DNA of 64,000 nt from a virus, in the IMG/VR virus record IMGVR_UViG_3300042503_001656, positions 54,037 to 118,036 of that record, one strand, 5' to 3'. Shown piece after piece: positions 8,459 through 64,000 of the stretch; positions within the stretch are counted from its first letter, which is position 1; each line of letters begins with the position of its first letter. The translations under genes were made by a program, and so were the position numbers. The notes beneath the pieces are model-generated. The model saw only the letters and a list, made by a program, of their open reading frames with translations. It was not told the DNA's origin and did no database searches.

Positions 8459-14026
<5,568 letters not shown>

Positions 14027-41780: not shown

Positions 41781-42909
41781 ATGTTGAATCTATTTCTTCT
41801 TCTTGGTTTCTTACTGTGTACGCCCTGGTCCTTGGTCCAACGGGCGAAGGCGAGCCACCATCTATCTCATTTAGAACAAGGGTTCTAATTAATAGGCTGA
41901 TTGGATATGCTCGTTGGTCTTCTAGGTGTTTCTTGCGAAACTTGGACACATACGCTTTTGCTTCCATTTGTCTACGTTCACCAATAAGGTACTCCTCAAT
42001 AAACATAGAGGCACCTTCTAGACCGAGTGCTGAATATTGGTCTATTAGTTTTTCGATGTCAAACTCTGGCCACCATCGACGCTGGGCATCTATGTAGGGG
42101 AAGCACTCAAAAAGTCTGTCGTAGAACTTTGGTTCAGTAGCAACCACATCACCAATTCTGCGGATAGCAATACTATGGAGTGGAATACCGATTCTTGTGT
42201 TGCTCTCTGTTTGGGCGGCAAGGTCGTAGTACTCACAATATTCAGAACCGTGCTCTTCAATTAGAAACTTAAAAACATCGTTTGTATTCCAGTCATAAAT
42301 GACCTTTGCAAACTTCATCGGAATTCCGGTTTTCAGCTTGTACGGAGTGACGATGTAGTTTTCGTGAAGCTTCTGCACGCATGAGCGATAACGAACCATC
42401 GACTCGCTAGCCCTAACTCCAGTGATGAAGGCAACATTGCCTTTCTTTCCCTGCATTGTGTAGTAGTCGGTTTGCTCGGGCAAAGAGACGTCATGTGTCA
42501 AGCCAAAGTCTTCAGCAGTAATTGCCCATGGCGGAATATCTCTAACGAGCCTTCCTTGGTTCTTGCGCGTATTGCTCCAAAGAACCGTGGTAACTCTTTG
42601 TCCAAGAACCCAAATCTCTGCAGGGTATGGAAGGCAGTACCACTCCATGTCAACCCAGTCGTAGTTTCTGACCTTCTCGACGTACTTGATGGTTGCCGGG
42701 CTAACCATTTCTTCATCTCTAAAGATGACCTTTACAGGGCCAAGTCCTCGCTCTTCATGGACTTCTTTGGCAAGGTACATAACAGCAGAAGAGTCTTTGC
42801 CACCAGAGAATTGAACACACACGGTGTCAAAGGTGTCGTATACGTGGCGAATTCTTTGACGAGCTGCATCGATGCAACTCATGTCAAGAAACATTCTTTG
42901 TCTAGTCAT
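41770..42909 (-). CDS. PAPS reductase / IbrA / DndC-like PP-loop protein
   Basis: A 379-residue protein with an N-terminal PP-loop 'VQFSGGKDSSAVMYLAKEV' (SGGKDSS at 35-41), the ATP-pyrophosphatase signature shared by PAPS reductases, DndC and IbrA. 'FITGVRASESMVRYRS' is the second family phrase. The C-terminal 130 residues are helical and charged. The Cys of assimilatory reductases ('ECGLH') is not seen, so it is not a sulfate-assimilation enzyme. It is paired with ParB-like genes on both sides (41226 and 43299). The family can act on sulfur or adenylation chemistry of nucleic acids; this protein's substrate is not determined by the sequence. Confidence 0.8.
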   Translation of the reverse strand: MTRQRMFLDMSCIDAARQRIRHVYDTFDTVCVQFSGGKDSSAVMYLAKEVHEERGLGPVKVIFRDEEMVSPATIKYVEKVRNYDWVDMEWYCLPYPAEIWVLGQRVTTVLWSNTRKNQGRLVRDIPPWAITAEDFGLTHDVSLPEQTDYYTMQGKKGNVAFITGVRASESMVRYRSCVQKLHENYIVTPYKLKTGIPMKFAKVIYDWNTNDVFKFLIEEHGSEYCEYYDLAAQTESNTRIGIPLHSIAIRRIGDVVATEPKFYDRLFECFPYIDAQRRWWPEFDIEKLIDQYSALGLEGASMFIEEYLIGERRQMEAKAYVSKFRKKHLEDQRAYPISLLIRTLVLNEIDGGSPSPVGPRTRAYTVRNQEEEIDSTYEV

Positions 42910-43088
42910 TAATATTTCGCAATCTGAGAAAGCCTCTGATTTTCTGCTCTAACATTTTCCAACTCTATGCGCAAGCGTTCAATCTCATCGGCCGCTTCCC
43001 AGCAGGCAACGGGAACGACTTTGCCGCTCATGTCGCCACGCAGGGATGCTATGTCTCGCAGTCGGGTCAGAATATCATTTTGATTCAT
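42909..43088 (-). CDS. small coiled-coil protein
   Basis: A 59-residue protein. I choose the ATG at 43088 (MNQND) because AAGGA lies 8 nt before it; an in-frame start at 43139 would give a long overlap. The C-terminal 30 residues form an amphipathic helix with leucine spacing ('EIERLRIELENVRAENQRL'), a short coiled coil. Its stop overlaps the next ATG (TAATG). Function unknown. Confidence 0.6.
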   Translation of the reverse strand: MNQNDILTRLRDIASLRGDMSGKVVPVACWEAADEIERLRIELENVRAENQRLSQIAKY

Positions 43089-43299
43089 TGTATTTCCTTG
43101 TGTTTTTGGCATTCCTTGCATAAACCGCAGCATAGGCAATCGCCATCAATATGAATCCATATTGCTTGGTTCTTATTGCGTAGACAATCCAAAGAATTTC
43201 ATTAACGAGGTTTATTAACCAACCCCACCAAACCCTATTGCCAGCGATTAGGAGACCAGTAACTCCTAAAATGCCCAGCACCCATGACCATGCACTCAT
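43075..43299 (-). CDS. small membrane protein
   Basis: A 74-residue protein with three hydrophobic segments: 'VLGILGVTGLLIAG' (about 7-20), 'WWGWLINLVNEILWIVYAI' (24-42) and 'YGFILMAIAYAAVYA' (47-61), and a basic C-terminus. Similar 'NRVWWGWLINxxNExLW' proteins recur in actinophages with no assigned role, and they faintly resemble an incomplete PnuC-type transporter. Coupled to the ParB gene upstream (TAATG). Confidence 0.65.
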   Translation of the reverse strand: MSAWSWVLGILGVTGLLIAGNRVWWGWLINLVNEILWIVYAIRTKQYGFILMAIAYAAVYARNAKNTRKYNESK

Positions 43300-44105
43300 T
43301 AAATCTCCGAGTGTTGGCCGATGAAGTCCATCAGTCTTTCTGCTGTTGTGTTTCCAACAATTGCAGGGTCGCTACGAAGCCATCTAACAAAGTCATACCA
43401 GCGAGACTGCTGAGCAGGGTTATCAAAAACAATCGTAAACTGAACCACGGCCTGCTGTGCGGCTCCGTTTGCCATTGTCGAACCTCTAACGGCAATGTCA
43501 TTCTGGTCGGATGAAGGTGGGGCAACGATTCTTTTTTCTCCATCGCTATCACGAGAAACAGAGAACTGTTGTTCTGGCAATTCTGGGACATCATTGAATC
43601 CCTGTATTTCTGTGTTGCGGTCGATTAGAACAGGCGGAACATAGGAACCAGTTGTAGACATCTCGCTACTGTTCCTGTATGCCTCTTGCTCATACTCGGC
43701 AATCTCAAACTCATCCCAACCGAGTCCTTCTAAAAGTTCTGGGTAGTCATCGCTTACTGCGGTAATCAGTTCATAAAGAACTTCTGGTTCTGAATAACCT
43801 AGTTCAACAGTTCTATTGTCTGCCAACGCAAACGCAACTGCACGGGAATCGTCACCGTCAAGATAAACAACAGCAACTTTGTCCCACCCAAGCATCTTGG
43901 CTGCTTCAAGTTGGTGGTTTCCTGCGATAACCGTGGCTGTACCATCATCGTTTTTCTTTGCAACAATTGGCTTTACTTGTCCGAATTCAGCATAGGAAGC
44001 GGCAATTGCATCAACGTCGCCAATTCTTGGATTTTTTTCAAGCGGCAAAAGAGTTTCTATATCTACTGCCATTCCCAACAGTGACTCATGAATTCCATTA
44101 CTCAT
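43299..44105 (-). CDS. ParB-like protein 2
   Basis: A 268-residue protein. The N-domain is a clear ParB/Srx fold: 'PLEKNPRIGDVDAIAASYAE', 'FGQVKPIVA', then 'VIAGNHQLEAAKMLGW' (the 'GxxRxxAxxxLG' equivalent, with H in place of R) and 'ADNRTVELG', typical of phage ParB-like proteins. The C-terminal third ('NPAQQSRWYDFVRWLRSDPA') is a family-specific tail that could bind partners. It is not a plasmid partition protein, because no parA is nearby. It may work with the PP-loop protein two genes downstream. Confidence 0.75.
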   Translation of the reverse strand: MSNGIHESLLGMAVDIETLLPLEKNPRIGDVDAIAASYAEFGQVKPIVAKKNDDGTATVIAGNHQLEAAKMLGWDKVAVVYLDGDDSRAVAFALADNRTVELGYSEPEVLYELITAVSDDYPELLEGLGWDEFEIAEYEQEAYRNSSEMSTTGSYVPPVLIDRNTEIQGFNDVPELPEQQFSVSRDSDGEKRIVAPPSSDQNDIAVRGSTMANGAAQQAVVQFTIVFDNPAQQSRWYDFVRWLRSDPAIVGNTTAERLMDFIGQHSEI

Positions 44106-48615: not shown

Positions 48616-49932
48616 CTAGATAACGATAGCAATCCTTCTTCTTTGTTGCAACCCGAGTCCGGCCAAATGTGTAAAAGCCCCAACAGCAGAGTCAACCTGG
48701 TCGTCGTGGTCGCATGCTTCAGGGAAAGAAGAAAGTTCATCAAGCCACTGAGTCAGCCATGGACCCCTAACTACCCTTACGTTTCCATTTGCTACTGCTG
48801 CGGCAAATGGTCTAGCCCTAGTGACCTTGTCTCCGGTTGCCCTAACTCCAGAAAAGTTATAACCGGGAAGAACGTATCTGGCGTACTGGTCGACAAGCGC
48901 TTTACCGCTTGAGCCGGGCTCCATTTCCATAAGAATCGGGGTATCTAGACCGTCTTCGTATGCTGTTTGAGATATTAATTGCTCGACTTTTTCCCCACGA
49001 ACCCTGACTCTCTTGACGTCCATGATGTAAGCAATGCCTTGGTCAAACATCATCAAGGTTCCAACCGTGTAGTCAGGGTCAGGGTTGTTTGGACTTGGTT
49101 CGGTTGCTGCAAGGTCCCAGAACCTAACAACCCTTGCTGTGTTGGATATTGTTGGGACTTCAGACTGGTCAATAATAATTACCGACTCTCGTTCAAAGAG
49201 GCTTCCGAGAGTCGTGCTCCACCAGTCACCTTCTTCAAGTCGTCTACGCTCGATTGGGTCAAGGGCTTGCAAAGCCTGACGATACGAATCAGCGTCAATT
49301 CCGGGGTTGTCCGTAAGTTTTGAAGGTACGAATATTCTTCCTTCAGACAATCCCTCAACAATGAATCTCTGCCTCACCCAGTTGGGCGCAGGGTTAGATG
49401 CGCAACGCATTCTGAGGGGGACTTCCGATAGGGGGCCAGAGTTGGGTCGACGCAAACGGGAGAACATGTAGCGATAGTCGGATTCCCGGATTTCGGTGAC
49501 TTCGTCCATTCCGATGAACTGGAATTCAGAACCTTTGTAGCGAAGATAGTCGGACTGGTTGTTTAGGTATCCAAACGAGATTCTTGCCCCCGAAGGGAAG
49601 GTAGCCACGAAGCTGTTGTTGTTCCAGTGGACATCGTCGTAGTTAGACATCCACGATTTAAAGCGGTCCATGAGTGCTCCAGGTAGCGACAAGTCTGCGA
49701 ATGTTCGACGGAAAAGAATTGCAGAATAGTTGGGGACATCTACAAACTGAAGGGCGGACATCAAAAGCGCAGAAGACTTACCACCGCCAGCAGCACCCCC
49801 AAAAAGGGCCTCAATGCCGTTAGTTCTCAAAAATACCTTTTGAGGCAAAGATGGCTCTTCTGGGCAGTAGTCGGACATCTTTGGTTGGAGATACTCAAGA
49901 ACTTGTTCCCAGTTCGTAGGTTGTTCTGACAT
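48616..49932 (-). CDS. terL: terminase large subunit
   Basis: A 438-residue protein with the two-domain terminase layout. ATPase: Walker A 'ALFGGAAGGGKSS' (about 43-54), Walker B 'FQFIGMDE' (Asp143, Glu144). RNase H-like nuclease: Asp273 in 'RFWDLAATEP', the 'YIMDVKRVRVRG' strand, 'ILMEMEPGSSGKAL', and the last acidic pair in 'DHDDQVDSA'. It translocates DNA into the prohead and cuts concatemers. GGAG precedes the ATG. Unusually, it is leftward, diverging from the portal. No small subunit is obvious in this window. Confidence 0.9.
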   Translation of the reverse strand: MSEQPTNWEQVLEYLQPKMSDYCPEEPSLPQKVFLRTNGIEALFGGAAGGGKSSALLMSALQFVDVPNYSAILFRRTFADLSLPGALMDRFKSWMSNYDDVHWNNNSFVATFPSGARISFGYLNNQSDYLRYKGSEFQFIGMDEVTEIRESDYRYMFSRLRRPNSGPLSEVPLRMRCASNPAPNWVRQRFIVEGLSEGRIFVPSKLTDNPGIDADSYRQALQALDPIERRRLEEGDWWSTTLGSLFERESVIIIDQSEVPTISNTARVVRFWDLAATEPSPNNPDPDYTVGTLMMFDQGIAYIMDVKRVRVRGEKVEQLISQTAYEDGLDTPILMEMEPGSSGKALVDQYARYVLPGYNFSGVRATGDKVTRARPFAAAVANGNVRVVRGPWLTQWLDELSSFPEACDHDDQVDSAVGAFTHLAGLGLQQRRRIAIVI

Positions 49933-50173: not shown

Positions 50174-52252
50174 ATGGCATGGAACGCTTCAACGAACAAG
50201 TCGCTGAATAATCAAGCACAAAAAGACATTGGACCTGGAGCACCAGTAGCCCAAAATCCCGGCTATGCAGGCAAGCCGTACAGGGACTCCTGGGATATTG
50301 AGCGTGCCTATAGAGAAGGCATGCAGAAGGTTACATGGGTGTCTAGGTGTATCGATGCCATTGCTGGAAACCAGGCAAGACTGCCGATAATACTCAGAAA
50401 AGACAACTCACCTCATGGTGAAATTCTTTCAATCAGAGAGTCAAAAAAGACAAATCTTCTTAATATTCTAAACTCAAAGTCTAATGTTGGAGAAAACTCC
50501 TACATTTTTAGATACAGACTTTCTGCTCAGTTGATGCTTGGCACCAGGGGTGCTTTTATTGAAAAAGTAAGAGGACGAGACGGCGGAATAATTGGCCTCA
50601 ACCTATTACCTCCTCAGTCAACCTCCCCAATACCAGACCCTAAAAAGTTTGTTTCTGGCTACGAAGTTCAAATGCCCACAGGAAACAAGGTCTACCTGAA
50701 GCCAGAAGACGTTTGCTGGGTGAGAAGACCTCACCCAATCGACCCATACTTGTCACTGACCCCATTGGAGGCCTGTGGCGTTGCGATTGAAATAGAAAAC
50801 CTGGCAAAGCTTTACAACAGAAACTACCTATTAAACGACGGTAGACCGGGTGGTTTGCTTGTTCTTCGTGGAGAAATCGACGACGACGACAAAGAAGAAT
50901 TGAGAAGCCGTTTCCGTGGAAACCTTTCACGCGCTGGATATACCTCTGTAATCGCTTCCGACGACGGTGTTGACTATGTTGACACTTCAGCAAACCCAAG
51001 AGACGCTGCGTACATACAGATGCGTCAAATAACAAAGGAGGAAATCCTTGCTTCATTTGGTGTTCCAGAGTCGGTTATCGGTAATGCTGCTGGTAGAACT
51101 TTTAGCAACGCTTCGGAAGAAATTCGTGTCTTTTGGATGGAGACGATGCTTCCCCATTTGGAGATTCTTTCACGGGCTCTAGATGAACTAGATGAAGACA
51201 ACTATGTTGACTTCAATGTTGACCAAGTGCCCATTTTGATGCTTTACGAGCAGGAGCGCCACCGCTACTTGATGGACGAATTCAACGCAGGTCTTATCAG
51301 CAATAACGAGTACAGAATAGGCTCAGGTCGCAAAGAAACAGAAAGCGACCTTGCTGACTCGCTCTTGGCTAATCCAAACCTTATTCCTATTGCAAATACG
51401 AAGAAGAAGATGGAAGAGCCTTCTCAGGCACAGGTTCCAGGGGCACCAGGACAGCCTGGGATGCCCGGAATGCCTCCAGGTGCACCCGGCATGCCTCCGA
51501 TGCCAGGAATGCCTCCAGGACCGGAAGCACAGCCAGCACTTGACCCAAATACGATGGCTGGGGCAATGGCAGAAGTATCTGGAGCACAAGCAGGTGGAGA
51601 ACTGGCACAATCTCCAATCCCAGGAATGCCTCCAGGAATGATGACCGGAGCAGAGCCAGTACCTCCTGGTGCTACCTCTGCTGAGTCGCCAACCATAATG
51701 ACAAAAGACGCCCTCGAAGCAATTTCCCAAAAGCAAGAAATCGAAAGATGGGAAGAGATACTTGTCAGAAGCATGGAAAGAGTCATGGAAAGACAACAGC
51801 GTGTTGTTCTTGAGAAGTCAAGTGGAGCAAAAGCAAAGAAGGCTTTGTTTGCTGGAACCCTAGATATCCCATCTGTGCTTCACTCAGAGACATGGGATAG
51901 GCAATTCGATGAGGACATCAGGCCGGTAATTACGGCCATAGTCAAAGAATCGTTAAAAGCTTCTACATCAATCGAGAAAAAGTCCGCGAAAAGTTGGGAA
52001 GTAGAGTCTGACATCATTGCTCAAGTTGATTCTCAAATGTTACGAATCAAGAGCTTAAACCAGGATTTGACAGAGGAAATTACTTCCCTCATGTTGTCTT
52101 CTCTGAATGTTTCTGACGAAGACCAGCGAGCTGGCGCTTTTAGGTCAAACATCGTGTCTTTGTATACAAATGTGTTGGCAAAACGGCTTCCGGAGATAGC
52201 TAGCGAGGAATCTAGGCGTGCCTGGACTTACGGAAAATTCATCGCTAGATAG
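50174..52252 (+). CDS. portal protein with long disordered C-terminus
   Basis: A 692-residue protein of the HK97-type portal family: 'VTWVSRCIDAIAGNQARLP' at the start, 'YRLSAQLMLGTRGAFIEKVR', 'LLPPQSTSPIPDP', 'LEACGVAIEIENLAKLYNRN' and 'RQITKEEILASFGVPESVIG' in the usual order to about residue 430. The rest is an unusual extension of about 260 residues with PGMP/PGAP-type repeats (about 420-460), then a helical C-terminal domain ('RSMERVMERQQRVVLEKSS'). The same PGMP repeat is found in the following protease protein, so the two may interact. It forms the DNA entry ring of the head. Confidence 0.9.
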   Translation: MAWNASTNKSLNNQAQKDIGPGAPVAQNPGYAGKPYRDSWDIERAYREGMQKVTWVSRCIDAIAGNQARLPIILRKDNSPHGEILSIRESKKTNLLNILNSKSNVGENSYIFRYRLSAQLMLGTRGAFIEKVRGRDGGIIGLNLLPPQSTSPIPDPKKFVSGYEVQMPTGNKVYLKPEDVCWVRRPHPIDPYLSLTPLEACGVAIEIENLAKLYNRNYLLNDGRPGGLLVLRGEIDDDDKEELRSRFRGNLSRAGYTSVIASDDGVDYVDTSANPRDAAYIQMRQITKEEILASFGVPESVIGNAAGRTFSNASEEIRVFWMETMLPHLEILSRALDELDEDNYVDFNVDQVPILMLYEQERHRYLMDEFNAGLISNNEYRIGSGRKETESDLADSLLANPNLIPIANTKKKMEEPSQAQVPGAPGQPGMPGMPPGAPGMPPMPGMPPGPEAQPALDPNTMAGAMAEVSGAQAGGELAQSPIPGMPPGMMTGAEPVPPGATSAESPTIMTKDALEAISQKQEIERWEEILVRSMERVMERQQRVVLEKSSGAKAKKALFAGTLDIPSVLHSETWDRQFDEDIRPVITAIVKESLKASTSIEKKSAKSWEVESDIIAQVDSQMLRIKSLNQDLTEEITSLMLSSLNVSDEDQRAGAFRSNIVSLYTNVLAKRLPEIASEESRRAWTYGKFIAR

Positions 52253-52322
52253 TTTTAGTATTTAGTTTTAGTAAACGACGCTAAAAACCTGAATACTTGC
52301 GGTTTCCATTGGTATTTTCGTT

Positions 52323-52350: not shown

Positions 52351-52875
52351 ATGTCCTCTTCTAATAAAAAATCCGACATTCAGTACAAGGCTGCACCGCA
52401 AGGAATGGTGAATTTAGACGAGGCCCAAGGCATCGTCGAATGTTTTGTCGCTGGGATAGGCAACAAAGACTCTGTTGGTGACGTTTGCGCACCAGGGGCT
52501 TTCGGCAAGAGTCTTACCAGAAGGAAGCCACGAGTCGTATGGGGACACAACTGGAACGACCCCATTGGCAAGGTCATCGACATGTACGAGGTTCCACCCA
52601 ACGACCCTCGTTTACCAGCAAAGATGAAGGCTGCAGGAATTGGCGGTCTTTATGCTCGCGTTCAATTCAACCTTATGTCGGAAAAGGGTCGTGAGGCGTT
52701 TGCCAATGTTGCTTTCTTTGGTGAAGAGCAAGAGTGGTCTATTGGTTACAAAACAATCAATGCAAAATTTGACCCACAGATGCAAGCAAACATTCTTTAT
52801 GAAGTAGAGCTTTATGAAGTGTCTCCAGTTCTTCATGGAGCAAACCAGCTGACAGGAACAATTTCAGTAAAGTCA
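52351..52875 (+). other. S78 prohead protease domain
   Basis: Residues 1-175 have the family phrases 'AQGIVECFVAGIGNKDSVGD', 'RKPRVVWGHNWNDPIGKVI' (catalytic His66), 'EEQEWSIGYKT' (Ser130) and 'LYEVSPVLHGAN' (acid near 156). This is the HK97/P22-type capsid maturation protease. It normally cuts scaffold and capsid N-termini inside the prohead and here heads a 3846-residue protein. Residue numbers are counted from the ATG at 52351; the catalytic assignment is by family pattern. Confidence 0.85.
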
Positions 52876-55800
52876 GAAGAGCAGCCATCTGGCGTTTCAG
52901 TAATTAATGCACCAAGCATTGATGGGTTAAACGTAAATGAGCTTTCTTCTATTCTTGAAGCACTTAAGGCTATTTCTTCTTCCGTTTCAGAAGACGAAAA
53001 GTGTGGACCAGGAATGATGCCACAAGGAATGCCAGGAATGCCTTCTGGCGGACCAGGTATGCCTTCTGGGCCGAAGCCAATGCATACAAACACTCCTGGT
53101 GCAGCACCAAGAGAAGTTGTTAAACCACAAATTCCATCCATGCCAGAAAACCCAATGACCGTAGCGCTTCGCCGTGAACTCGCGACTCGCACTGGCTCAA
53201 ATGTAATTGTGCGTTCAGCAAGTGACAGTGTCGTCGTTTTTGACAGGGTGCTGGCTGACGGAACATCAAGCACATACAGATTGCCTTTCCACTATGCCGG
53301 TGGAGAGTTTATGTTCGGCAAGCCAGAAAAAGTTCAGTCTCAAGCAAACTACGTCCAAGATTCTCCTTTGTCTGAAATCATGGTTGAAGCGCTTCTTTCT
53401 GGCCCCACTGCAGGCGCAGAAAAGTCTTTAATCTCTTTTGACGACCAAGAGTGGGGTGAAGGATTTGGGCAATCAATTCCGTCACAGCAAGTTGATGCTT
53501 CAACTTTGAATAGCGTTATCGCTAATCTTCAAAAAATAATCGAGCAGAAATCTGAATATGTTGTTCAAGTTGCTCCAGAACATGCTTTTGAAGTAAAGCA
53601 AGCGATAGACCCAATTCTTGATTTCTACAAGGTTGACGCAACCATCAATGAAGATGGAATTGTTGTTAAGTCACTCAATGAAGACTTTTTGAACGCTCTT
53701 GACATCGCCACAAAAGGCGTATTACGCAGTCTTGGCAACCTTGCGGGTAGAGCAATAGACCGCCCTAATATTGGCAGAAACAGAAGAGACAGAACACCCA
53801 ACCTTGCATCACGAGGCCCTGGAATTGGTTCACGAGGAGCGGTAGTAAGACTCCGTGATGGAAGCACGTGGGACCCAAAAAACGCACCGGATAGAAACCG
53901 TAATGGCATTGTAGGTGAAGGCCTCTTTGACAGTAGCGGAAGGTCGTTGGCACAGCCAGACCCAACACCAGAGGGGCCAGATTCTATCCGGGGAGCAAAG
54001 ACACCAAAGTCACCGCAGACCCCTAAAAGGCAGGCAGCGGCTGCCGCAAAAAGAAACGCTACTGTAAAAAGAACTTCTGGGCAGCCCCAGAAAGCAAGGC
54101 AGCGTCTTTCTTCAGGCGGAATTGACCAAGAAGTTGACGATACACCAATGCTTGAGGAGAAGTTCAAGAAGGAAGTCTCTGGCTTTTTGTCTGAAATAGG
54201 AACAAACCGTAATGAGATAGAAAACATTCTTGACCTGTGGGAAAACAACGATGCAGACCATGACAAGTACATGGAAGAGCATGGAGCTGGTTCAAAAAAC
54301 TTTGCTGAAAACGTGGCTTATGCAGCGTCAGCAATGTACGAAGACTACATCTCTGATGCGGGAGATAGGCAGGCTGACCGTCGTGCCGAGGGAGGGCGTT
54401 TCTCGTCTGGCGAGTGGACAAAAATTCCTGGTGTTGGCTATGAGATGGATGCCCCAGACATTGAAGGTGTTTATGAAATACAGGAAGGCCTTGACGGGAA
54501 GTTCTATGTAGTCAGATACTCCGATGGCAACCGTAATGGTGGCCAAAACATGGGCATATATGAGCATGATAAGCCTTTCTCTACTCTTGCAGCAGCAAAG
54601 AAGTGGTCTGAAAAAGACTATGCGCAAGCAGCTGATGAATATATGCCAGATGGCATGGAGGATGCAGATTCAGAAGATGGCGAAAGGTTCTCTTCTGGTC
54701 AAATTGACTTCGACAAGATAGGCGAATCGGGCCTCAGAGAAATGCGCCATGTTGAGCGCAACCCTCTTAGATTTGATACACAGGCAGACAAAGATGCACG
54801 CGCTGCGTACGAACGGGTTGTAGCAAACTTTAGAGCAAACAACGGTTTCTTCCGTGAAGTACCTATGTATGCAGGTGACAAAAAGTGGCACAGCGAAGAC
54901 TGGTTCCGTGGCCGCGAGATGGCAGAAAACGTTGCCACCTTGCGATTTGGTGACCCAATTGACCAAATGCCGTTCTTCGATAAACCAGGCAAGCCATCAA
55001 AAAGAGAATTCTTCGAGAGAACTACAACTGTTGATTACAGGTCCTGGTACATGGCAAAAATTCCAGCCATGACGCAAGAGTTGGACAGAGTGCTTGCTTC
55101 CGACGCCTATTCAGATGAATACAAAGAAGCATTCCTAGAAGGAATGAGGACATTCTTCTACGTGAATAGGCCAAACCTTCAGTACGCTCCGAAAGATACA
55201 CAGGCGCAGTATGAAGAATGGCTTCAGCGTTCAGGTCTCGGCTGGAAGGGTAGATACTCTACTTCTGGTCCAAAATTCGAAGACATGGAAACAAACAGAT
55301 TTTCTTCTGGTGCTACAGGTAGAGATAACAAGGTAATTGAGTCTTACGAAAACGTTGACGACCTCAAAGAAGCAATGTTTAGTGCTCTCTGGGAAATGTC
55401 ACTAAAGGGTGACATTGATGGTGTTACGGCAGAAGAACTTGCAGATGCGATTAGCGTAAATACGAACTGGGTAGAACCACATCTTGAAGATGTAAAGAAT
55501 TACGCGCTTGATGCAAGAAGAAGTATGGATGAGTATTACTCTTCCATTCCTGAGCTAACCGACGAAGAGATGGACCAGGAATACAGGGACTGGCTGGATT
55601 CACAGGCTGGCAAAGACAGCGCTCGTGCCATGACTATTAAAGAAAAATTCGACAGCATGACCGACGAAGAGGCAGCTGATTATGTTGCTTGGCTCGAAGA
55701 AGAGACATGGAGAGACAGAAGCGATACGTACTTCTCATCTGGAGAAAGAGGAACCCCTGAAGAGAGGGTAGAGCTCTATAACAGGAGAGCCTCTGAAAAG

Positions 55801-58800
55801 AATGCAATTCTTGAGTCCATGACACCAGAAGAGCTTGCAGAATATGCAGAGCAGTGGAATGAAGACCATCGCGAAGATGAAAGATTCTCGTCTGGCCAAG
55901 TCAATAGACCGAAGTCAACAAAAACCGGAGAAGAGTTTATTGGCCGTAGCTACGGTCTTCATGATTTTTTTGTTTACGACGAAGAAGACGATTTTGAGAA
56001 TATTGACAAGGCGATTGTAGATTCACTTCTCAAAGGCGAAAGAATGTCCCTTGATGACCTTCTGCTTGAAGTGCGAGGCATCAATGACCCCGACCTCAGC
56101 GGAGAAGCACTGGTCCGCAGACCAGACCAAATGGGCGCAAACGCAAGACGCGTTGCTGAAGCTGTTGCAAACAATACATCCGTTAGTCCATCGTTGGCCA
56201 ACCAGAAGGCTGGAAGGGAAGACATACTTCACTTTAGTTACAATGGTAAACAGCGTTCTATATACCCAGAGACTTTTTCAACAAGCAAAAAGGGTGTTGG
56301 CTATTTTGTTGGCTGGGACGAAACCGCAGATAACGGCAATGGCGCATATAGAAGTTTCAATATAGACAAAATAGAAGGCCTTATATCTAGCGCAATACCT
56401 CCACATGTAGACAGGGCAGCAAGGTATACAGATTATTCATGGAACATAACTGACTTCTCTGATGAAGATAATCAAAAAATTCTTGAACAGATGCGACGTA
56501 CTAAAGAGTTCAGGGTTCTTGATGACGCGCAAGACCTGATAGACGATGAGGTGAGCGCAGGAGGCACAAGAGTTGCAGGCTCGACTCTTGATATTGCGGA
56601 AAAAGAAGCCCAAGCAGCTTTCCAAGATGCTCGCAATAGACAAATTGACAAGATGGTTGCCGACGGCAAAATTAAGCCGCTATCAAGAGATAGTAGATTC
56701 TCTTCAGGAATGGTTAACGACGGTCTTCCAGACGGATACTGGGACACCGCAGACGACATGGCAGATTCTTATGGCGACAGAGAAGACTACACAGACGCAA
56801 GGTTCTCCTCTGGTGGAATGCCAAGCACTAAAGAGCAAGCAGACCTAATAGCTTTTGCTAGGTCAAAGCCTGGCACTTTTACAGACAGTGTTGTTTCTCA
56901 ATTTGACAGAAACAGAAGACTGTCAGAAAAGCAATGGGACGCAATACGTAGAATGATGCGCGGTGCATCTGGTGGTAAGGCTGCTCCAAAAGCAGATAAG
57001 CCAACTGCTCGTTTTTCTGGAAAGCGTCGTCAAATTGTAGATATTGCCGATATTGAAAAGTATGACTACCCAGAGCTTCCTGCAAAGATAAAGCCAACAC
57101 CAGAACAAGACAGAGCTATCGATGCGATGATGACTGGTGCAGACGTAAAGATTGGTGCTTTAGCAGCAACAGGCAAGACGACAACTGTCATTAACTTTGC
57201 CAACCGCCTCAAGGCTAAAGAACCAGACGCAAGGGTTGTCTATCTCGTGTTTAACAGAAACGCAAAAGACGACGTAGAAAAGCGTGGAATGCCAGGAAAC
57301 GTTTCTGTCTCAACGATGGACGGAATTGCTTACAGAGCAATGGACGCTATCAACCCAGAAATGACCAAGAAGAGCTTTGACAAAAAAGAGGGCCACATAA
57401 AGCCAATCAACTCTTTCAAAGATAGAGCTAAGTATCTTGGTACAAAGGGAATGGTTTCCCAAGGCGAAGAATTGACCGATGTTGATGTTTATAGAATTGT
57501 AGCTAAAGCGATAGATGCATATTCAATAAGCGACGACAAGGAAATTGGACCACAACACTTTACTGGCCCATACAACGGTTCATACAAGGTGACAGACACT
57601 TCATTGCTTCCCGAGTTGCTTAAGTATGCAAACAAGATGTGGGAAGACATGAATCTTCCTAGAGTCAATGGTGCCACCAGGAAAGACCAAAAAGGAATGC
57701 TTCCTGTAAACAACACACATCTAACAAAGATGTGGGCATTGACAAATCCAGACATAGGCGAAATTGCTGAAGTCAATGTAGCAATGGTTGACGAAGCTCA
57801 AGACATGAACCCAGTTTTTGCTGGAATATTGAGGAACTCAAACCTTCAGAAAATCTACATTGGTGACACAAACCAGGCAATTAACGCATGGCGTGGAGCA
57901 GACGGAACAACGCTTGCAAATGTAGAAGCAACATACGACATGCCAATTACTGATTCGTTCAGATTCGGCAAGAACGTAGCGAACATGGGCAACAGATTCC
58001 TTTCGCTTCTCAATACAAAAGAGCGCATGACCGGAAGAAAGACAGACAAGTCTGGAAATCCTGTTGACGGAAGAATTGGACAGGTTGATAACCCAACAAT
58101 GATTTTGACACGCTCTAATGGCGGAGCCATCGCTGCAACCATGGAAGTGTTTGCAGATGGTGGAATTGTTTACGGAAGCCAAAACTTCAAGAGAGATTTG
58201 GAGAACTTCTTAAACAACATCGAATGGATGCAGAATGCCCAAAAGGGCAAACCGTTCTATACAGACGTATATGGAAAGCAAGTATTTTCAGCTCCTGAGT
58301 TCAGTCAAGACCTTGACGGAATTACAAACATTGCAGACTTCAATAAGGCTATTGAAAAGGGCGATGACAACAGACTAAACATGCTTTCTAAGCTGATGAA
58401 CGATTACTCGCTTGAAGACTTGAGAGAATCTCTCAACAACATCATTACAGACAAAAACAAGCTTCCAAAAAATCGTGATGAGTATGTTCACATTCAGACA
58501 GCCCACACATCCAAGGGTCTTGAGTCGCCACGAGTCAAGATTTGGTCAGACTTTAGAAAGCCAAAGAAGCTTGAGAACGGTGAATGGCAATACCCTGATG
58601 AGCAGGAGATGAGGCTTTCTTATGTTGCCGTAACAAGAGCAGAGGAAGAACTTGACCTTGGTTCACTTAGTTGGATTCTTGACCACACAACAGAAGAAGA
58701 CGGTATGCCAAATACTTTCTCTTCTGGAAGAAGCAAAGCAAGAGGCAACAGGGGTGATGGCAAGGGAAGACAAAAACCATGGTCGGCAGAAGATAGGCAA

Positions 58801-61800
58801 AGATTTGCGGACAGGGACATTCTTCGTTCACAAACACGCCCAGGAAAGCGTCGTCCAGGTCCTTCAGCAAACGAATTCTCGTCTGGTGCTGAATTTGATT
58901 TCACTCCAGAAGAGCTCAATAGGTGGCAAAAAGCTAGCGAACATGCCAGCGCATATGGCGATTGGGAAAATCTTCCAGAAAACAGAAAAAACGGATATCT
59001 TCGTAAATTTAACGGAGATGAAAATCTTGCTCGCGAGCAATTTAACGTGGAAAGAGATTTGGCAGACTTTGCTGCAGATGCACAATTCGACAAAACAAAT
59101 TCACGATTCTCTTCTGGAGGCCGTTTCGCACCACAACCGCAAGCACCAGAGGGCTGGGAAATGCCAGAAATTGGTGATGACGGCGAAATAAAGAATGGAC
59201 CGCTTAAGGGTTACTACATTCGTGAATTCGGTGACCCTTTTGTACCAGGAAGAAAGTACGTAAGCTATGGTGGCACACACTACAGCACTACCGATGAGCA
59301 CAAAAATACCCTAGTTGAATGGGGTGACTACGAGCCTGGCTACACCATCGACAGAAACATAGGCTCTGACGAAGACATTAGGGGTATTGCTGACTCTTCC
59401 GAGCAAGAAGAAATGGCGCAGTATGGCGACGAAGGTTTGTACTATGGCAATAGTTCACGTGGGCGATACGACCCTCAAAATGATTATGAAACTTCAGTAA
59501 CCGACGACTCCCATTCACCAGAAAACGGTGAAGACCACATCGGTAAAGCCGTATCCGTAACGGATGAAAATGGAAACAAATTCTACGGTGTAGTTGTTAG
59601 AGGTTGGGAACCGGAATACGAAGAAGACTTAGATGTTGATGAGGATGGGTGGGCAACCCCGAGCATGAACATACAAGACGGTGGCATGGTAGTTCTCGCT
59701 ACTCATGATGCTGACGGCAAAAAACTTGATAAACCAGTAGTTGTTGAGGCAAGTTTTGGTCTTGAAAATGAATACGCCCTCGTATCAAATGTTGAGAGAG
59801 GTGGAGACGATTACGAAGGGCCAAAGGTCAATGTATCAAAAGGCCGTGTAAGTGAAGAAACCCTTGACGAAGCCAAAAAGCTTTATGAAGAACTGGACCC
59901 ATATAGAAATGGTAAAGCCGACGAGTTCAGGCGTCAAGGAGCCTTGATAGATAGAACATGGAGAATGCCGGGAGGCGAAAAAGAGCGCAGGGAAAAAGCT
60001 GCCGAAGAAGCTTACAGAAGAAGCCCTGAAGGAATACAAGAGCAAAGAGAAAAGCTAGAAGCATCCATATCGGCTATAGAAGACAAGATAAGAAGCGCGG
60101 AGTCTTCTCGTGAATCTCTCATGGAGAGGCTGAACGACGTTTCTGAAAGTGGAGACAATGTCCTTGCTTCAAAAATGGAAGAAATATTAAGAGACAGAGA
60201 GGGAGCGGTACGACTCCTCCAAGAAAAACTTGAAGAAGCAAAAGCTGAACTAGATGCTTTTAATGGCGAAGGAAACAGGCTTTCTTCTGGAAGATTTGCG
60301 CCTGATGGACAATCGGGTTCAAGGCTTCAAAGAAGACTTTCTTCTGGCGATGTTTTTGGCCCACCACCAGGACAGTCGGCAAGATATGACCGCAAGAAGC
60401 AAGTCGAAGCAACGATGGGTGCATTCCACTCTGACCCAGGAATGGCTCGTGTATCTAGCGACGCAGAAGGCATTTTAGGAAAGATACCTTCTGGCAAGAA
60501 CTCGCATGTTCTTAACCTAGAAGCAGCAAAGAGAATAATTGCAGACCCTGACGGTGAGTATTCAGCAGAAACTGGATGGCCAGTTGATGCCGGAAGACTG
60601 CTTGATTTTATTCAAATTGATAACCCTCTTGGTGGAAGCCCAAGCACTCTTCGTGACAAAGACGACGCACAACTTATTGCAAGGGTTTTGGGTATACCAG
60701 CATCGGACGCTCAAGACATGCTTGATGGGAAGCCTGTATACATTGCCAGCTCAACTGCGGCTGACATGTTTGACAACCTTTCAAGAACAAAAGAGTACAC
60801 ATCAAGCGTTGGTGGATTAAACGACGTAGCGAGAGTTTGGGGATTTGATGGCGCTCCAAAGTGGGTGCGTCATAGCGACATTGCTACCCCCGAGTTTGAC
60901 CTCGATGAAAACGACAGAGTTAACTGGTCGCAGGTTAAATGGGATGGCCTCTCAAGGGCTGACTTTGATGCAGCAGTAAGAAGAGGGAACAACCCACCAG
61001 AACCCGTATACACATCTCCTGTTGAGTTTTTCAATAGTGATGCAATCGCCAGCAACCCCAAGTGGGACGCTCGTGGTGGCTCATTCAGGAACCCAACAGT
61101 CGATGCTGAGTTCACTGCAACACCAAAGAAGGTTTCCAGAGCCGAACAGTTGGAGCCAGAAAGATTTGTTTCTCAGGCAAGAGCTGGAGAAAGGGTTGCG
61201 CGCGCTGACAAAGATTTTATGGACGAATGGACCAACGGAAGTCATGGAATTGGTGCAGCACAGCTCATGCAGATGCTTGGATTGGAAAGAGATTCAGAAG
61301 GAGACCGCATAAGTAGCCAAGACGTAAGAAAGCTTCTTGACGAAATAAACAAGATTAAAGAAGAAGCTGGAAGCGGACTTGTTCCTGCTGCAAAGAGAGA
61401 AGATGGCAAATTTAAAGAATCACTTGAGCTGGACACAAAGAAGTCTCCAATCAATGATGAAATAATGCATGCACTCATTGTCTCTGGAAGATTCAAGAAC
61501 ATGAAAGAAGCAGTTGCTTCGCTTGGTGACCCAAGACTTGATTCTCTTGCCGCAGAATACGACTCCCGCATGCTTGTCGATGCAGCATTCATAAGAATCA
61601 AGGACCATCTAAACAAGGTTGGAGCAGCTGACCAAAAGAAGATTCTTTCTAAGGTAATCACTGCCGCTCTTGGTCGCAAGACAACACTTGAATCTCGCGT
61701 ACAGGAAGGCAGAGCATCCATCAAGGGTGTAATGAATTCAGACGCAATGATTGGCGATGAAAAGCTTTCCGAAGTAATTGGCATGGTCAACGAGGTTCTT

Positions 61801-63891
61801 GAGGCAAGGGGTCTTGAGACAATCGACAAGGATGCATTGTTCCCAAGGGACGAGGCAGGCGGATTTGTGAACAACTTGAGTGCTTCGGCTCCAGGCGCAA
61901 CGAGGCTTGCTTCTGGTCAGAGGTTTGTAGCCAGAACCGCATCAAGCAGAAGAGCTGATGCCGGAATGGATGCTGCAGCAAGAAGAGCAACAGATAGGCC
62001 AACGTTCTCAAGCGGTGCGAAGCCAGCATTTAGGGACCCAGACGGAAAACTGAACGCCACAAACATGAGAGATGCTGCATCCGAAGCAACAATTCCAGAA
62101 GGAACAAGGATAAGAAAAACTCCTGGCCAAAATATAGAAGACTTTGAAAAAGCAGTTAAGACGAGGGCCGAAATAGCAGAAACCCTAAACATAGATACTT
62201 CAGCAATAAATGGCTTTACTGTCTACGACGTTATAGACGAGCTTAAAAAGGCAGGAATACCTGAAGATACCGCAGAAGACCTTGTCGATAAGCTTGTAGA
62301 ACTAGATTTCTATATTGATGCAATCGAGGAGAGATTCTCTGAAGCCAGAGAAATCATGGATGAAGCTATTGAAGAAGCTGAAGATGCTATGGACAAGATT
62401 GCGAAACTAAGAAAAGAGCGTGCCGACATTATTAATAGGTACGGCGAAGAAGATGGACAGCCACTGCTTGAGGTTGTTGATGAAAAAATTAGCAGAGCGA
62501 CCAAAAAGCTTGACGATGCCTACCAAAGAGGTATCGGCAATGAGGATGCAAGAATGGGAACTCTCTATTCTCAGGTTGACGAAATTCTGAGTAATAATCG
62601 TGGATGGAGAGAGTATTCGCCATCCCCATATAGAGATAGTACAAATCAGAACCTTGCTGCTCTTGAATTAGCAATTGCAAAAGCTGGCGGAGTAAAGAAA
62701 GCCGTACCAGTTACGGGAATAGATTTCGGAGTTCCAGAAGGCACAAGGCTTTCTTCAGGAAAAGCAGAAGAGTATTACCAAAACCTCACAAGCCACTTGA
62801 TAAACATGATTGAAAAATCACAAAAAGAAGGCGGTAAGTGGGAAGCACCATGGCATAAGGCTGGAAATCTTCCAAGAAATGCTTCTACAAAGAATATGTA
62901 TTCGGGTGGAAACATCTTTGCTCTTATGCTTGCAGCCGAAGAAAAGGGCTTCACAACCTCTCACTGGGGTGGATTCCAGCAGTGGAAGAAGCTTGGAGGA
63001 AGCGTAAAGAAGGGCGAAAAGGCAACCATCATCCTCATGCCAAAGCAGATGTTTGGTGAGGAAATCGACCCAGACACAGGGCAGAAGGTTAGAAAGTCAA
63101 AGGGCGTATATTTTACGACCGCACATGTTTTCAACCTTGACCAAGTTGAGGGAATTGACCGCGATGAGTTCTTGAAGCTGCCGACAGATGCCCTGACACC
63201 AGAGCAGAGAGTCACAAAGCTTGAAGACGCAATCAAGGAAGTTGGTGCAACAATCAAGACCGGAGATGGAAGTAGGGCTTACTACTCTCCGCGTGAAGAC
63301 CATGTTGTGATGCCTCCATTCGAACTGTTCAAGTCCCCAGAGGGATACTACGGAACACTCGCCCATGAGCTTGTTCACTGGACAGGGCATTCGTCAAGAC
63401 TTGACAGAAAGAATATGAACCAGTTTGGTTCTCCTGACTATGCAAGAGAAGAGCTTATTGCTGAATTTGGCTCAGCTTTCCTGTTGGCAATGTTTGGTCT
63501 TTCTGCAGAACCAAGAGAAGACCATGCCCATTACTTGGCAAACTGGTTGCAGGTTCTTCGCGATGAGCCAAATGCTCTGCAGGAAGCAGCAACAAAAGCT
63601 CAAGAAGCGTCAAAAATGCTCATTGAAAAAATGAAGGCAGTTCTGGAAGAGATGGGCGAAACAGCATCTTCTGCTGAATCCGACATAGAAGAAAAGAATG
63701 CAAACATTTTTACAGACCCGCTTTACGGAATAAAGAATGAACTTGTTGAATGGAGCAAAAACATTGAAAATGCTCCATATTTCATTAAGTCCTTGACAAA
63801 CCCCGACGAAGAACACGGAAATGTAAATAGAAGATGGGAAAGAATTGCAGAAGCAGCGCTATTCCTAAACGGCATAAACAACAAAATCTAG
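52351..63891 (+). CDS. prohead protease polyprotein with helicase and ArdC modules
   Basis: A 3846-residue protein; I choose the ATG at 52351 because AAGGAG lies 5 nt before it (an in-frame TTG exists at 52297). Residues 1-175 are an S78-type prohead protease. A Pro/Gly/Met linker (PGMP repeats) follows, then segments separated by about 17 copies of an R-[F/L]-S-S-G motif. Residues about 1575-2105 are a UvrD/FBH1-like helicase, and 3466-3846 are an ArdC-like antirestriction protein with a zincin HExxH. The other segments (96-523 residues, some coiled coils near 2560-2640 and 3315-3390) have no recognised fold. The frame is open for 11.5 kb with no stop, and the spacing of motifs matches domain edges. 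I infer a self-cleaved polyprotein whose pieces are packaged in the head; an unprocessed giant scaffold is the alternative. Confidence 0.9.
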   Translation: MSSSNKKSDIQYKAAPQGMVNLDEAQGIVECFVAGIGNKDSVGDVCAPGAFGKSLTRRKPRVVWGHNWNDPIGKVIDMYEVPPNDPRLPAKMKAAGIGGLYARVQFNLMSEKGREAFANVAFFGEEQEWSIGYKTINAKFDPQMQANILYEVELYEVSPVLHGANQLTGTISVKSEEQPSGVSVINAPSIDGLNVNELSSILEALKAISSSVSEDEKCGPGMMPQGMPGMPSGGPGMPSGPKPMHTNTPGAAPREVVKPQIPSMPENPMTVALRRELATRTGSNVIVRSASDSVVVFDRVLADGTSSTYRLPFHYAGGEFMFGKPEKVQSQANYVQDSPLSEIMVEALLSGPTAGAEKSLISFDDQEWGEGFGQSIPSQQVDASTLNSVIANLQKIIEQKSEYVVQVAPEHAFEVKQAIDPILDFYKVDATINEDGIVVKSLNEDFLNALDIATKGVLRSLGNLAGRAIDRPNIGRNRRDRTPNLASRGPGIGSRGAVVRLRDGSTWDPKNAPDRNRNGIVGEGLFDSSGRSLAQPDPTPEGPDSIRGAKTPKSPQTPKRQAAAAAKRNATVKRTSGQPQKARQRLSSGGIDQEVDDTPMLEEKFKKEVSGFLSEIGTNRNEIENILDLWENNDADHDKYMEEHGAGSKNFAENVAYAASAMYEDYISDAGDRQADRRAEGGRFSSGEWTKIPGVGYEMDAPDIEGVYEIQEGLDGKFYVVRYSDGNRNGGQNMGIYEHDKPFSTLAAAKKWSEKDYAQAADEYMPDGMEDADSEDGERFSSGQIDFDKIGESGLREMRHVERNPLRFDTQADKDARAAYERVVANFRANNGFFREVPMYAGDKKWHSEDWFRGREMAENVATLRFGDPIDQMPFFDKPGKPSKREFFERTTTVDYRSWYMAKIPAMTQELDRVLASDAYSDEYKEAFLEGMRTFFYVNRPNLQYAPKDTQAQYEEWLQRSGLGWKGRYSTSGPKFEDMETNRFSSGATGRDNKVIESYENVDDLKEAMFSALWEMSLKGDIDGVTAEELADAISVNTNWVEPHLEDVKNYALDARRSMDEYYSSIPELTDEEMDQEYRDWLDSQAGKDSARAMTIKEKFDSMTDEEAADYVAWLEEETWRDRSDTYFSSGERGTPEERVELYNRRASEKNAILESMTPEELAEYAEQWNEDHREDERFSSGQVNRPKSTKTGEEFIGRSYGLHDFFVYDEEDDFENIDKAIVDSLLKGERMSLDDLLLEVRGINDPDLSGEALVRRPDQMGANARRVAEAVANNTSVSPSLANQKAGREDILHFSYNGKQRSIYPETFSTSKKGVGYFVGWDETADNGNGAYRSFNIDKIEGLISSAIPPHVDRAARYTDYSWNITDFSDEDNQKILEQMRRTKEFRVLDDAQDLIDDEVSAGGTRVAGSTLDIAEKEAQAAFQDARNRQIDKMVADGKIKPLSRDSRFSSGMVNDGLPDGYWDTADDMADSYGDREDYTDARFSSGGMPSTKEQADLIAFARSKPGTFTDSVVSQFDRNRRLSEKQWDAIRRMMRGASGGKAAPKADKPTARFSGKRRQIVDIADIEKYDYPELPAKIKPTPEQDRAIDAMMTGADVKIGALAATGKTTTVINFANRLKAKEPDARVVYLVFNRNAKDDVEKRGMPGNVSVSTMDGIAYRAMDAINPEMTKKSFDKKEGHIKPINSFKDRAKYLGTKGMVSQGEELTDVDVYRIVAKAIDAYSISDDKEIGPQHFTGPYNGSYKVTDTSLLPELLKYANKMWEDMNLPRVNGATRKDQKGMLPVNNTHLTKMWALTNPDIGEIAEVNVAMVDEAQDMNPVFAGILRNSNLQKIYIGDTNQAINAWRGADGTTLANVEATYDMPITDSFRFGKNVANMGNRFLSLLNTKERMTGRKTDKSGNPVDGRIGQVDNPTMILTRSNGGAIAATMEVFADGGIVYGSQNFKRDLENFLNNIEWMQNAQKGKPFYTDVYGKQVFSAPEFSQDLDGITNIADFNKAIEKGDDNRLNMLSKLMNDYSLEDLRESLNNIITDKNKLPKNRDEYVHIQTAHTSKGLESPRVKIWSDFRKPKKLENGEWQYPDEQEMRLSYVAVTRAEEELDLGSLSWILDHTTEEDGMPNTFSSGRSKARGNRGDGKGRQKPWSAEDRQRFADRDILRSQTRPGKRRPGPSANEFSSGAEFDFTPEELNRWQKASEHASAYGDWENLPENRKNGYLRKFNGDENLAREQFNVERDLADFAADAQFDKTNSRFSSGGRFAPQPQAPEGWEMPEIGDDGEIKNGPLKGYYIREFGDPFVPGRKYVSYGGTHYSTTDEHKNTLVEWGDYEPGYTIDRNIGSDEDIRGIADSSEQEEMAQYGDEGLYYGNSSRGRYDPQNDYETSVTDDSHSPENGEDHIGKAVSVTDENGNKFYGVVVRGWEPEYEEDLDVDEDGWATPSMNIQDGGMVVLATHDADGKKLDKPVVVEASFGLENEYALVSNVERGGDDYEGPKVNVSKGRVSEETLDEAKKLYEELDPYRNGKADEFRRQGALIDRTWRMPGGEKERREKAAEEAYRRSPEGIQEQREKLEASISAIEDKIRSAESSRESLMERLNDVSESGDNVLASKMEEILRDREGAVRLLQEKLEEAKAELDAFNGEGNRLSSGRFAPDGQSGSRLQRRLSSGDVFGPPPGQSARYDRKKQVEATMGAFHSDPGMARVSSDAEGILGKIPSGKNSHVLNLEAAKRIIADPDGEYSAETGWPVDAGRLLDFIQIDNPLGGSPSTLRDKDDAQLIARVLGIPASDAQDMLDGKPVYIASSTAADMFDNLSRTKEYTSSVGGLNDVARVWGFDGAPKWVRHSDIATPEFDLDENDRVNWSQVKWDGLSRADFDAAVRRGNNPPEPVYTSPVEFFNSDAIASNPKWDARGGSFRNPTVDAEFTATPKKVSRAEQLEPERFVSQARAGERVARADKDFMDEWTNGSHGIGAAQLMQMLGLERDSEGDRISSQDVRKLLDEINKIKEEAGSGLVPAAKREDGKFKESLELDTKKSPINDEIMHALIVSGRFKNMKEAVASLGDPRLDSLAAEYDSRMLVDAAFIRIKDHLNKVGAADQKKILSKVITAALGRKTTLESRVQEGRASIKGVMNSDAMIGDEKLSEVIGMVNEVLEARGLETIDKDALFPRDEAGGFVNNLSASAPGATRLASGQRFVARTASSRRADAGMDAAARRATDRPTFSSGAKPAFRDPDGKLNATNMRDAASEATIPEGTRIRKTPGQNIEDFEKAVKTRAEIAETLNIDTSAINGFTVYDVIDELKKAGIPEDTAEDLVDKLVELDFYIDAIEERFSEAREIMDEAIEEAEDAMDKIAKLRKERADIINRYGEEDGQPLLEVVDEKISRATKKLDDAYQRGIGNEDARMGTLYSQVDEILSNNRGWREYSPSPYRDSTNQNLAALELAIAKAGGVKKAVPVTGIDFGVPEGTRLSSGKAEEYYQNLTSHLINMIEKSQKEGGKWEAPWHKAGNLPRNASTKNMYSGGNIFALMLAAEEKGFTTSHWGGFQQWKKLGGSVKKGEKATIILMPKQMFGEEIDPDTGQKVRKSKGVYFTTAHVFNLDQVEGIDRDEFLKLPTDALTPEQRVTKLEDAIKEVGATIKTGDGSRAYYSPREDHVVMPPFELFKSPEGYYGTLAHELVHWTGHSSRLDRKNMNQFGSPDYAREELIAEFGSAFLLAMFGLSAEPREDHAHYLANWLQVLRDEPNALQEAATKAQEASKMLIEKMKAVLEEMGETASSAESDIEEKNANIFTDPLYGIKNELVEWSKNIENAPYFIKSLTNPDEEHGNVNRRWERIAEAALFLNGINNKI
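54103..62760 (+). repeat. array of R-[F/L]-S-S-G motifs, putative cleavage sites
   Basis: In-frame motif positions (first base): 54103 RLSSG, 54397 RFSSG, 54685 RFSSG, 55297 RFSSG, 55729 YFSSG, 55882 RFSSG, 56695 RFSSG, 56800 RFSSG, 57010 RFSG, 58714 TFSSG, 58873 EFSSG, 59104 RFSSG, 60277 RLSSG, 60334 RLSSG, 61903 RLASG, 62002 TFSSG, 62746 RLSSG. The synonymous codons differ between copies (cgt/agg/aga, tct/tcg/tca), so the peptide, not the DNA, is conserved. They cut the protein into segments of about 19 to 568 residues that match domain edges. Confidence 0.9.
57085..58680 (+). other. UvrD/FBH1-like SF1 helicase domain
   Basis: Residues about 1580-2110 carry superfamily 1 motifs: Q-like 'PTPEQDRAID', Walker A 'GALAATGKTTT' (1602-1612), Walker B 'VAMVDEAQDM' (Asp1814, Glu1815), motif III 'KIYIGDTNQAINAWRGAD', motif IV/V-like 'YVHIQTAHTSKGLE' and motif VI 'SYVAVTRAEEEL' (Arg2096). 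The order and the 'GDTNQAI(N)AWRGA' phrase match FBH1-type UvrD helicases. It is bounded by RFSG (1554) and TFSSG (2122). Confidence 0.85.
62764..63888 (+). other. ArdC-like antirestriction domain with zincin site
   Basis: Residues about 3472-3846: an ssDNA-binding ArdC N-domain ('GGKWEAPWHKAGN', 'NIFALMLAAEEKGF', 'WKKLGGSVKKGEKAT') and a metallopeptidase domain with 'AHELVHWTGH' (His3672, Glu3673, His3676) and a downstream 'REELIAEFGSAF' (third ligand region). ArdC proteins protect incoming DNA from restriction. It follows the last RLSSG motif (3466), so it could be released as a free protein of about 380 residues. Confidence 0.85.
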
Positions 63892-63982: not shown

Positions 63983-64000
63983 ATGAACGATGAAATGAAC
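63983..64000 (+). CDS. start of the next gene, possibly the major capsid protein (partial)
   Basis: An ATG with AGGAG 8 nt upstream (63969-63973), reading MNDEMN to the end of the window. The major capsid gene normally follows the prohead protease and is absent from the rest of this window, so this is the best candidate. Only six codons are visible. Confidence 0.45.

Follow-up and report, generated by a model that had tools for sequence, protein, structure and literature searches.

Repeated xLSSG-type tags mark the modules of a giant phage protein that joins a prohead protease to an ArdC anti-restriction domain

Introduction

How does an ArdC anti-restriction domain come to stand at the end of a giant phage protein that begins with a head maturation protease, and would it be released from that protein and carried into the next host? 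The question is raised by the right end (positions 54037–118036) of the 118,036-base IMG/VR virus record IMGVR_UViG_3300042503_001656, a stretch of 64,000 nucleotides referred to below as the window. The element in question is a giant open reading frame (ORF) at 52351–63891 on the forward strand, in which an S78 protease, cargo, a UvrD helicase, further cargo and ArdC follow each other. A preliminary description of the window had read the ArdC as packaged by way of a polyprotein. The reading preferred here, to which a probability of roughly 0.55 is given, is that the precursor is cut by the S78 protease at a short repeated tag, and that ArdC and the other modules are packaged, ejected with the DNA and used against restriction at entry.

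The giant open reading frame and its modules

The frame is unbroken from the ATG at 52351 (3,846 codons), or from a possible TTG start at 52297, to 63891. An independent record also has this frame open, encoding 3,967 amino acids with an ArdC 98% identical to the present one; an assembly or frame artefact was rejected because the frame is likewise open in independent contigs. Several disparate enzymatic domains are encoded in this one frame. The Peptidase_S78 or HK97-type prohead protease domain at 52432–52863 matched Pfam S78 (E = 1.1e-10, above the Pfam cut-off) and phrog_80 (8.7e-28), and the His of its WGHN and the Ser of its WSIGY are invariant in 14 distinct homologues. TIGR01543 also matched the protease (E = 1.1e-12), but its 48.3 bits are below the 59-bit equivalog cut-off, and a sequence search of the PDB with the protease domain gave no match. 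The UvrD-like helicase module covers 57061–58659 (phrog_1967, 3.1e-68).

ArdC is the last module of the frame, as the preliminary description had it, and the other features named there, an intact HExxH and a preceding RLSSG, are found exactly: RLSSG at 62746–62760 is followed by the 376 codons of ArdC (62761–63888) and a TAG stop (63889–63891), and HExxH is HELVH at 63364–63378. An ArdcN domain of the type binding single-stranded DNA starts about three residues past the tag (62770–63132; Pfam E = 2.3e-26) and is followed by an MPTase-PolyVal zincin domain (63217–63594; Pfam E = 8.8e-45), and the whole matches PHROG 7245, 'anti-restriction protein' (7e-82). The closest solved relative is the ArdC of plasmid R388 (PDB 6SNA/6I89), both by sequence (2.8e-49) and by the predicted fold in Foldseek (2.7e-19). 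Alignment to it places the third metal ligand, the Glu equivalent to R388 E229, at 63451–63453; equivalents of R388 H201, E202, H205, E228, E229 and Y255 are all present and show no variation across 12 distinct polyprotein ArdCs. PADLOC and NCBIfam gave no ArdC match. By each of the sequence features tested, the domain is securely identified as ArdC. The ratio of nonsynonymous to synonymous substitutions (dN/dS) is about 0.08–0.10 in two well-diverged pairs (relatives at 79–85% amino-acid identity), and ArdC is therefore under strong purifying selection. An internal start for a separate ArdC was rejected, as the DNA around 62746 is without a start codon having a well-placed ribosome-binding site.

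At least 540 IMG/VR loci encode a relative of the protease, of which the best 80 were read. These loci are a best-scoring subset in which near copies occur; for the 26 distinct polyproteins and for the distances between tags and modules given below the rows were dereplicated at about 90%, but they are still related. The records are mostly incomplete, and absence of ArdC from a record is weak evidence. The polyproteins reach 4,740 amino acids among 26 distinct relatives. S78 is present in cis in all 14 long homologues scanned and in 14 of the 15 giant ORFs that carry ArdC and are complete at the 5' end, and MPTase in 11 of the 14 long homologues. Sigma-70 region 4 is a cargo module in six of 14 polyproteins (amino acids 1271–1304 of L089 and five other homologues). 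The module order differs between phages, with ArdC before or after the helicase; it may stand at the end of the polyprotein, within it or in a split ORF, and in two cases (G007 and L141) it is in a separate ORF adjoining the protease, with the tag retained.

A search of viral contigs with ArdC produced 40 giant-ORF and 39 free-standing ArdCs, near copies included. In a tree of 69 rows a single branch, supported at 100/100, separates the giant-borne ArdCs as one clade from the free-standing phage ArdCs. ArdC has therefore long been associated with the polyproteins and was not repeatedly acquired.

Sites and statistics of the tag

The giant ORF includes 15 occurrences of [FL]SSG against 0.10 expected from shuffles, 11 of them R[FL]SSG (0.012 expected), plus one RLASG. 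In order along the forward strand, the proposed cleavage tags are RLSSG at 54103–54117 (tag 1), RFSSG at 54397–54411, 54685–54699 and 55297–55311 (tags 2–4), YFSSG at 55729–55743 (tag 5), RFSSG at 55882–55896, 56695–56709 and 56800–56814 (tags 6–8), TFSSG at 58714–58728 directly after the helicase (tag 9), EFSSG at 58873–58887 (tag 10), RFSSG at 59104–59118 (tag 11), RLSSG at 60277–60291 and 60334–60348 (tags 12 and 13), the variant RLASG at 61903–61917 and TFSSG at 62002–62016, both in predicted disorder (tags 14 and 15), and the RLSSG just before ArdC (tag 16). Chance occurrence of the motif was rejected by the shuffles and by the patterns across lineages. A DNA repeat was also rejected: the codons differ from tag to tag, and it is therefore the amino acids that are conserved.

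The tags are at the boundaries of the modules. Within the protease, helicase or ArdC domains of the 26 distinct polyproteins none was found, against 61.5 expected by length. A tag lies 2–9 residues before ArdC in 13 of the 14 polyproteins with ArdC; in the fourteenth the aligned part starts 29 residues further on, within the domain itself. An internal ArdC is followed by a further tag 17–69 residues after the domain, and in all seven cases in which the helicase was aligned at full length a tag is present 2–6 residues past its end. In the viral contigs searched with ArdC (near copies again included), a tag was found at most 30 residues upstream of the domain in 31 of the 40 giant ORFs and in none of the 39 solo ArdCs. 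An AlphaFold model of low depth, with a mean predicted local distance difference test (pLDDT) score of 64, puts the tag before ArdC in coil, after a low-confidence stretch and with a helical segment on its upstream side, and two other tags in a stretch with pLDDT below 50; this predicted placement is supportive only.

The tag in other proteins

The tag begins with a phage-specific residue, R, K, G or S. A second giant protein of 2,300–3,500 amino acids, encoded downstream in relatives, carries the same tag; in G001, a close relative with a nearly complete genome, it lies at 1–9504 of L086 and has an RNase_T exonuclease domain. Its tags match the first tag residue of the polyprotein at 36 of 40 sites in 8 partly non-independent genomes (label-permutation p = 0.001). 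Also the tape measure protein matches, at 9 of 11 sites in 6 such genomes (p = 0.02). In the window, the tape measure gene, assigned from sequence, size and place, is at 30575–35686 on the reverse strand and includes KLSSG and RFSSG; the two tags are at positions conserved in relatives, and the same protease may thus also act on this protein. In the remaining ORFs of G001 only isolated tag matches at chance level were found.

That the tag changes together in three proteins points to a reader common to all of them. Since the second giant protein has no protease, any cutting of it would be in trans. The pattern fits a single trans-acting protease reading the tag, for which the S78 enzyme is the simplest candidate. 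In the sister polyproteins L145, L147, L148 and L171 the xLSSG before ArdC is replaced by GF[AS]SRG; this is likely a shift of protease specificity, as would be expected under specificity drift.

Proposed maturation and delivery

Under the preferred reading, the N-terminal HK97-type S78 prohead protease would cut the precursor at x-[L/F]-S-S-G tags, and would in this way free the UvrD-like helicase, several uncharacterised pieces and lastly an ArdC of about 376 residues. The sequences show the modules, the tags at their boundaries, the tag identity common to three proteins of a phage, and the conservation of ArdC under purifying selection, whereas cleavage and its exact bond, the protease responsible, packaging, ejection and anti-restriction activity are inferred from them. 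The precursor would enter the prohead during assembly with all its modules, as suggested by the prohead protease that it carries and by its place in the head operon; the modules would be freed there, stay within the capsid and be ejected along with the DNA. Virion packaging and delivery with the DNA are plausible because of the position of the gene between those for portal and capsid and its fusion to a prohead protease, and because the Dar proteins of phage P1 offer a precedent. At entry, ArdC would act as an anti-restriction factor binding single-stranded DNA; its zincin site is conserved, yet may be dispensable for this role. The other cargo is also early-acting, including sigma-70 region 4 and the exonuclease.

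That ArdC is a motif-delimited module of a head-protease polyprotein has strong comparative support. The argument from plasmids offered for virion delivery in the preliminary description, that plasmid ArdC is carried with the conjugating DNA, is weaker than was stated and is contested: for R388, expression of ardC is needed in the recipient cells and expression in the donor is of no help (PMC7213743). The metalloprotease-dead R388 mutant E229A still works (PMC7213743), and therefore the HExxH mutants suggested earlier would not test anti-restriction; mutants of the ArdcN surface, together with a deletion, would do so.

Several observations weigh against cleavage by a shared head protease followed by delivery. 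The comparisons of the second giant protein and the tape measure rest on only 8 and 6 genomes, respectively, and a tape measure is not a standard substrate of prohead proteases. A few giant relatives are without the tag or have GF[AS]SRG, and LSSG was not found in the capsid protein, where only a weak [LMI]P[ST]G precedes the HK97 fold and is not conserved in all. The closest isolates, Gordonia phages GMA6 and ScarletRaider and Brevibacterium phage Cantare, are contractile-tailed actinophages with a homologous capsid maturation protease (about 38–42% identity), but their proteases are short (418–484 amino acids) and have neither cargo nor tags. The capsid genes of L086, L088, L090, L094 and L096–L098 encode an N-terminal delta region of about 150 amino acids, and a possible cut site of the capsid protein is the [LMI]P[ST]G directly ahead of the HK97 fold.

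Alternative explanations

The polyprotein could be cut at the tags and ArdC still not be delivered, acting instead in the producing cell or leaving the head like a propeptide, with the fusion serving co-expression only. Peptides released by prohead proteases do usually exit the head (PMC10052503), the ArdC of R388 is functional when the recipient produces it, and the ArdCs of G007 and L141 are unfused; the position in the head operon and the fusion in cis to a prohead protease speak against it, as do the split ORFs in keeping the tag, and we regard this explanation as distinctly unlikely. Another job for the conserved ArdC fold, such as proteolysis of a host repressor in the manner of IrrE or protection of single-stranded replication intermediates, appears unlikely to a lesser degree. 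IrrE is among the structural kin of ArdC, ArdC-dependent conjugation is accompanied by an SOS response (PMC7213743), and a helicase and an exonuclease are also among the cargo. Against this, anti-restriction, towards HsdRMS, is the one function for which the family has been tested (PMC7213743), and conservation of the zincin site is matched by that of the ArdcN residues.

The remaining two explanations concern the tag and its reader. If the giant protein were left uncut, LSSG would be a linker or a docking motif, for example for the scaffold, portal or capsid, and ArdC would be delivered within a long polyvalent protein, comparable to the virion RNA polymerase of N4, which is packaged unprocessed (PMC5512222). 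The lack of the tag in the capsid protein agrees with this. Against it, the tag stands at every testable boundary and never within domains, and three proteins change it together; one would expect this of a site for a protease more than of a docking motif present 10–20 times over. We consider an uncut protein improbable. Even more doubtful is that the ArdC zincin, rather than S78, is the processing protease, although its HExxH and third ligand are invariant and MPTase autoprocessing has been put forward for polyvalent proteins (Iyer et al., PMC5512222). S78 is to be preferred because it is present in 14 of 14 long homologues against 11 of 14 for MPTase, and because tag-rich polyproteins without ArdC or MPTase exist; no ArdC was found in the whole of the partial record G008, which has 10 GLSSG. 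Moreover, R388 ArdC did not degrade HhaI (PMC7213743).

Comparison with known systems

The polyprotein qualifies as a polyvalent protein of the phage type described by Iyer et al. (2017; PMC5512222) for phages and conjugative elements. That class likewise comprises very large multi-domain proteins encoded near head genes; ArdC-N with MPTase, helicases and further early-acting functions are among their domains, and packaging and processing have been predicted for them. The present gene is near the virion genes of a phage with portal and terminase. In that account (PMC5512222), ArdC-N is rare in phages, an assemblin-like protease is always C-terminal and, in the parts consulted, no repeated phage-specific tag is seen, whereas here ArdC is common, S78 is N-terminal and xLSSG marks the modules and recurs in other proteins. 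The N-terminal S78 widens the class and membership stands, as the statement of 2017 on the C-terminal position describes its own data set. In the open-access literature nothing was found on S78 polyproteins with repeated tags and only Iyer et al. came close; an earlier description elsewhere is possible.

In the Dar system of P1 (PMC12810830) anti-restriction proteins are packaged in the head and co-ejected with the DNA, with DarA being a substrate of the prohead protease Pro. The Dar proteins are encoded by separate genes and not by a polyprotein, unlike here. DarA and DarB are not ArdC proteins; no Dar family was among the Pfam and PHROG results of the general scans, and no direct comparison with DarA or DarB was made. 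The ArdC of R388/pSa (PDB 6I89, 6SNA; PMC7213743) shares the two-domain fold, the metal residues and about 36% identity, but is plasmid-borne, free-standing, needed in the recipient and outside any polyprotein. The proteases T4 gp21 and SPN3US gp245 (PMC10052503) also cut many head proteins, ejected ones included, at a short motif; the motif is a different one, N-terminal propeptides are cut from separate proteins, and the protease is not fused to cargo. In T4-like and SPN3US heads the released propeptides normally exit (PMC10052503), and retention of ArdC therefore has to be shown.

Genomic neighbourhood and host

Directly upstream of the giant ORF are the portal gene (50174–52252, forward strand) and the gene of the terminase large subunit (48616–49932, reverse strand), both assigned by PHROG profile matches. 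The next gene after ArdC starts at 63983–64000 (MNDEMN..., forward strand) and runs past the end of the record. It was considered as a capsid gene and rejected: it is a Zn-ribbon/acidic, scaffold-like ORF without a PHROG match, and the capsid gene of relatives is about 17–19 kb further on. The gene order in relatives is portal, polyprotein, Zn-ribbon/acidic scaffold-like protein, second giant protein, several small genes and capsid, so that the polyprotein locus sits between portal and capsid genes.

The source is an uncultured tailed virus, probably with a host among the Actinobacteria, as suggested by a WhiB-like gene (our reading) and by the nearest isolates being from Gordonia and Brevibacterium; a tail-sheath-like gene suggests a contractile tail. 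No relatives telling of the host were found in named host genomes, only three contigs in metagenome bins of other phyla, which are probably mis-binned.

Elsewhere in the window, a protein of 1,855 amino acids with long collagen-like GATGPTG repeats (8459–14026, forward strand) is probably a tail-fibre or surface protein, and a glycosyltransferase gene is near it (18464–19534). Amid structural genes is that of a histone H1-like Lys/Ala/Pro-rich protein (40458–41144, reverse strand), for which the HC2 match is weak and below the cut-off. A PAPS-reductase-like gene (41770–42909) lies beside ParB-like genes, and the neighbourhood (41226–44105, reverse strand) resembles those of IbrA/IbrB or of sulfur-type DNA modification.

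Implications

It is about an even chance that a widespread, uncultured, contractile-tailed lineage uses polyproteins much as eukaryotic RNA viruses do, with the N-terminal prohead protease maturing its own precursor of 3,000–4,700 amino acids in cis and acting in trans on the tape measure and the second giant protein, by a tag coevolving with the lineage, and with a virion loaded with ArdC, helicase, a sigma-like factor and an exonuclease. If the preferred reading is true, a DNA phage would have its anti-restriction ready at entry, with ArdC as cargo of the head protease, and a generic tag releasing the modules would allow these to be freely shuffled. The code of the cut sites would then be readable from sequence, which would allow the proteins injected by hundreds of uncultured phages to be catalogued and the early-function cargo to be tested one module at a time.

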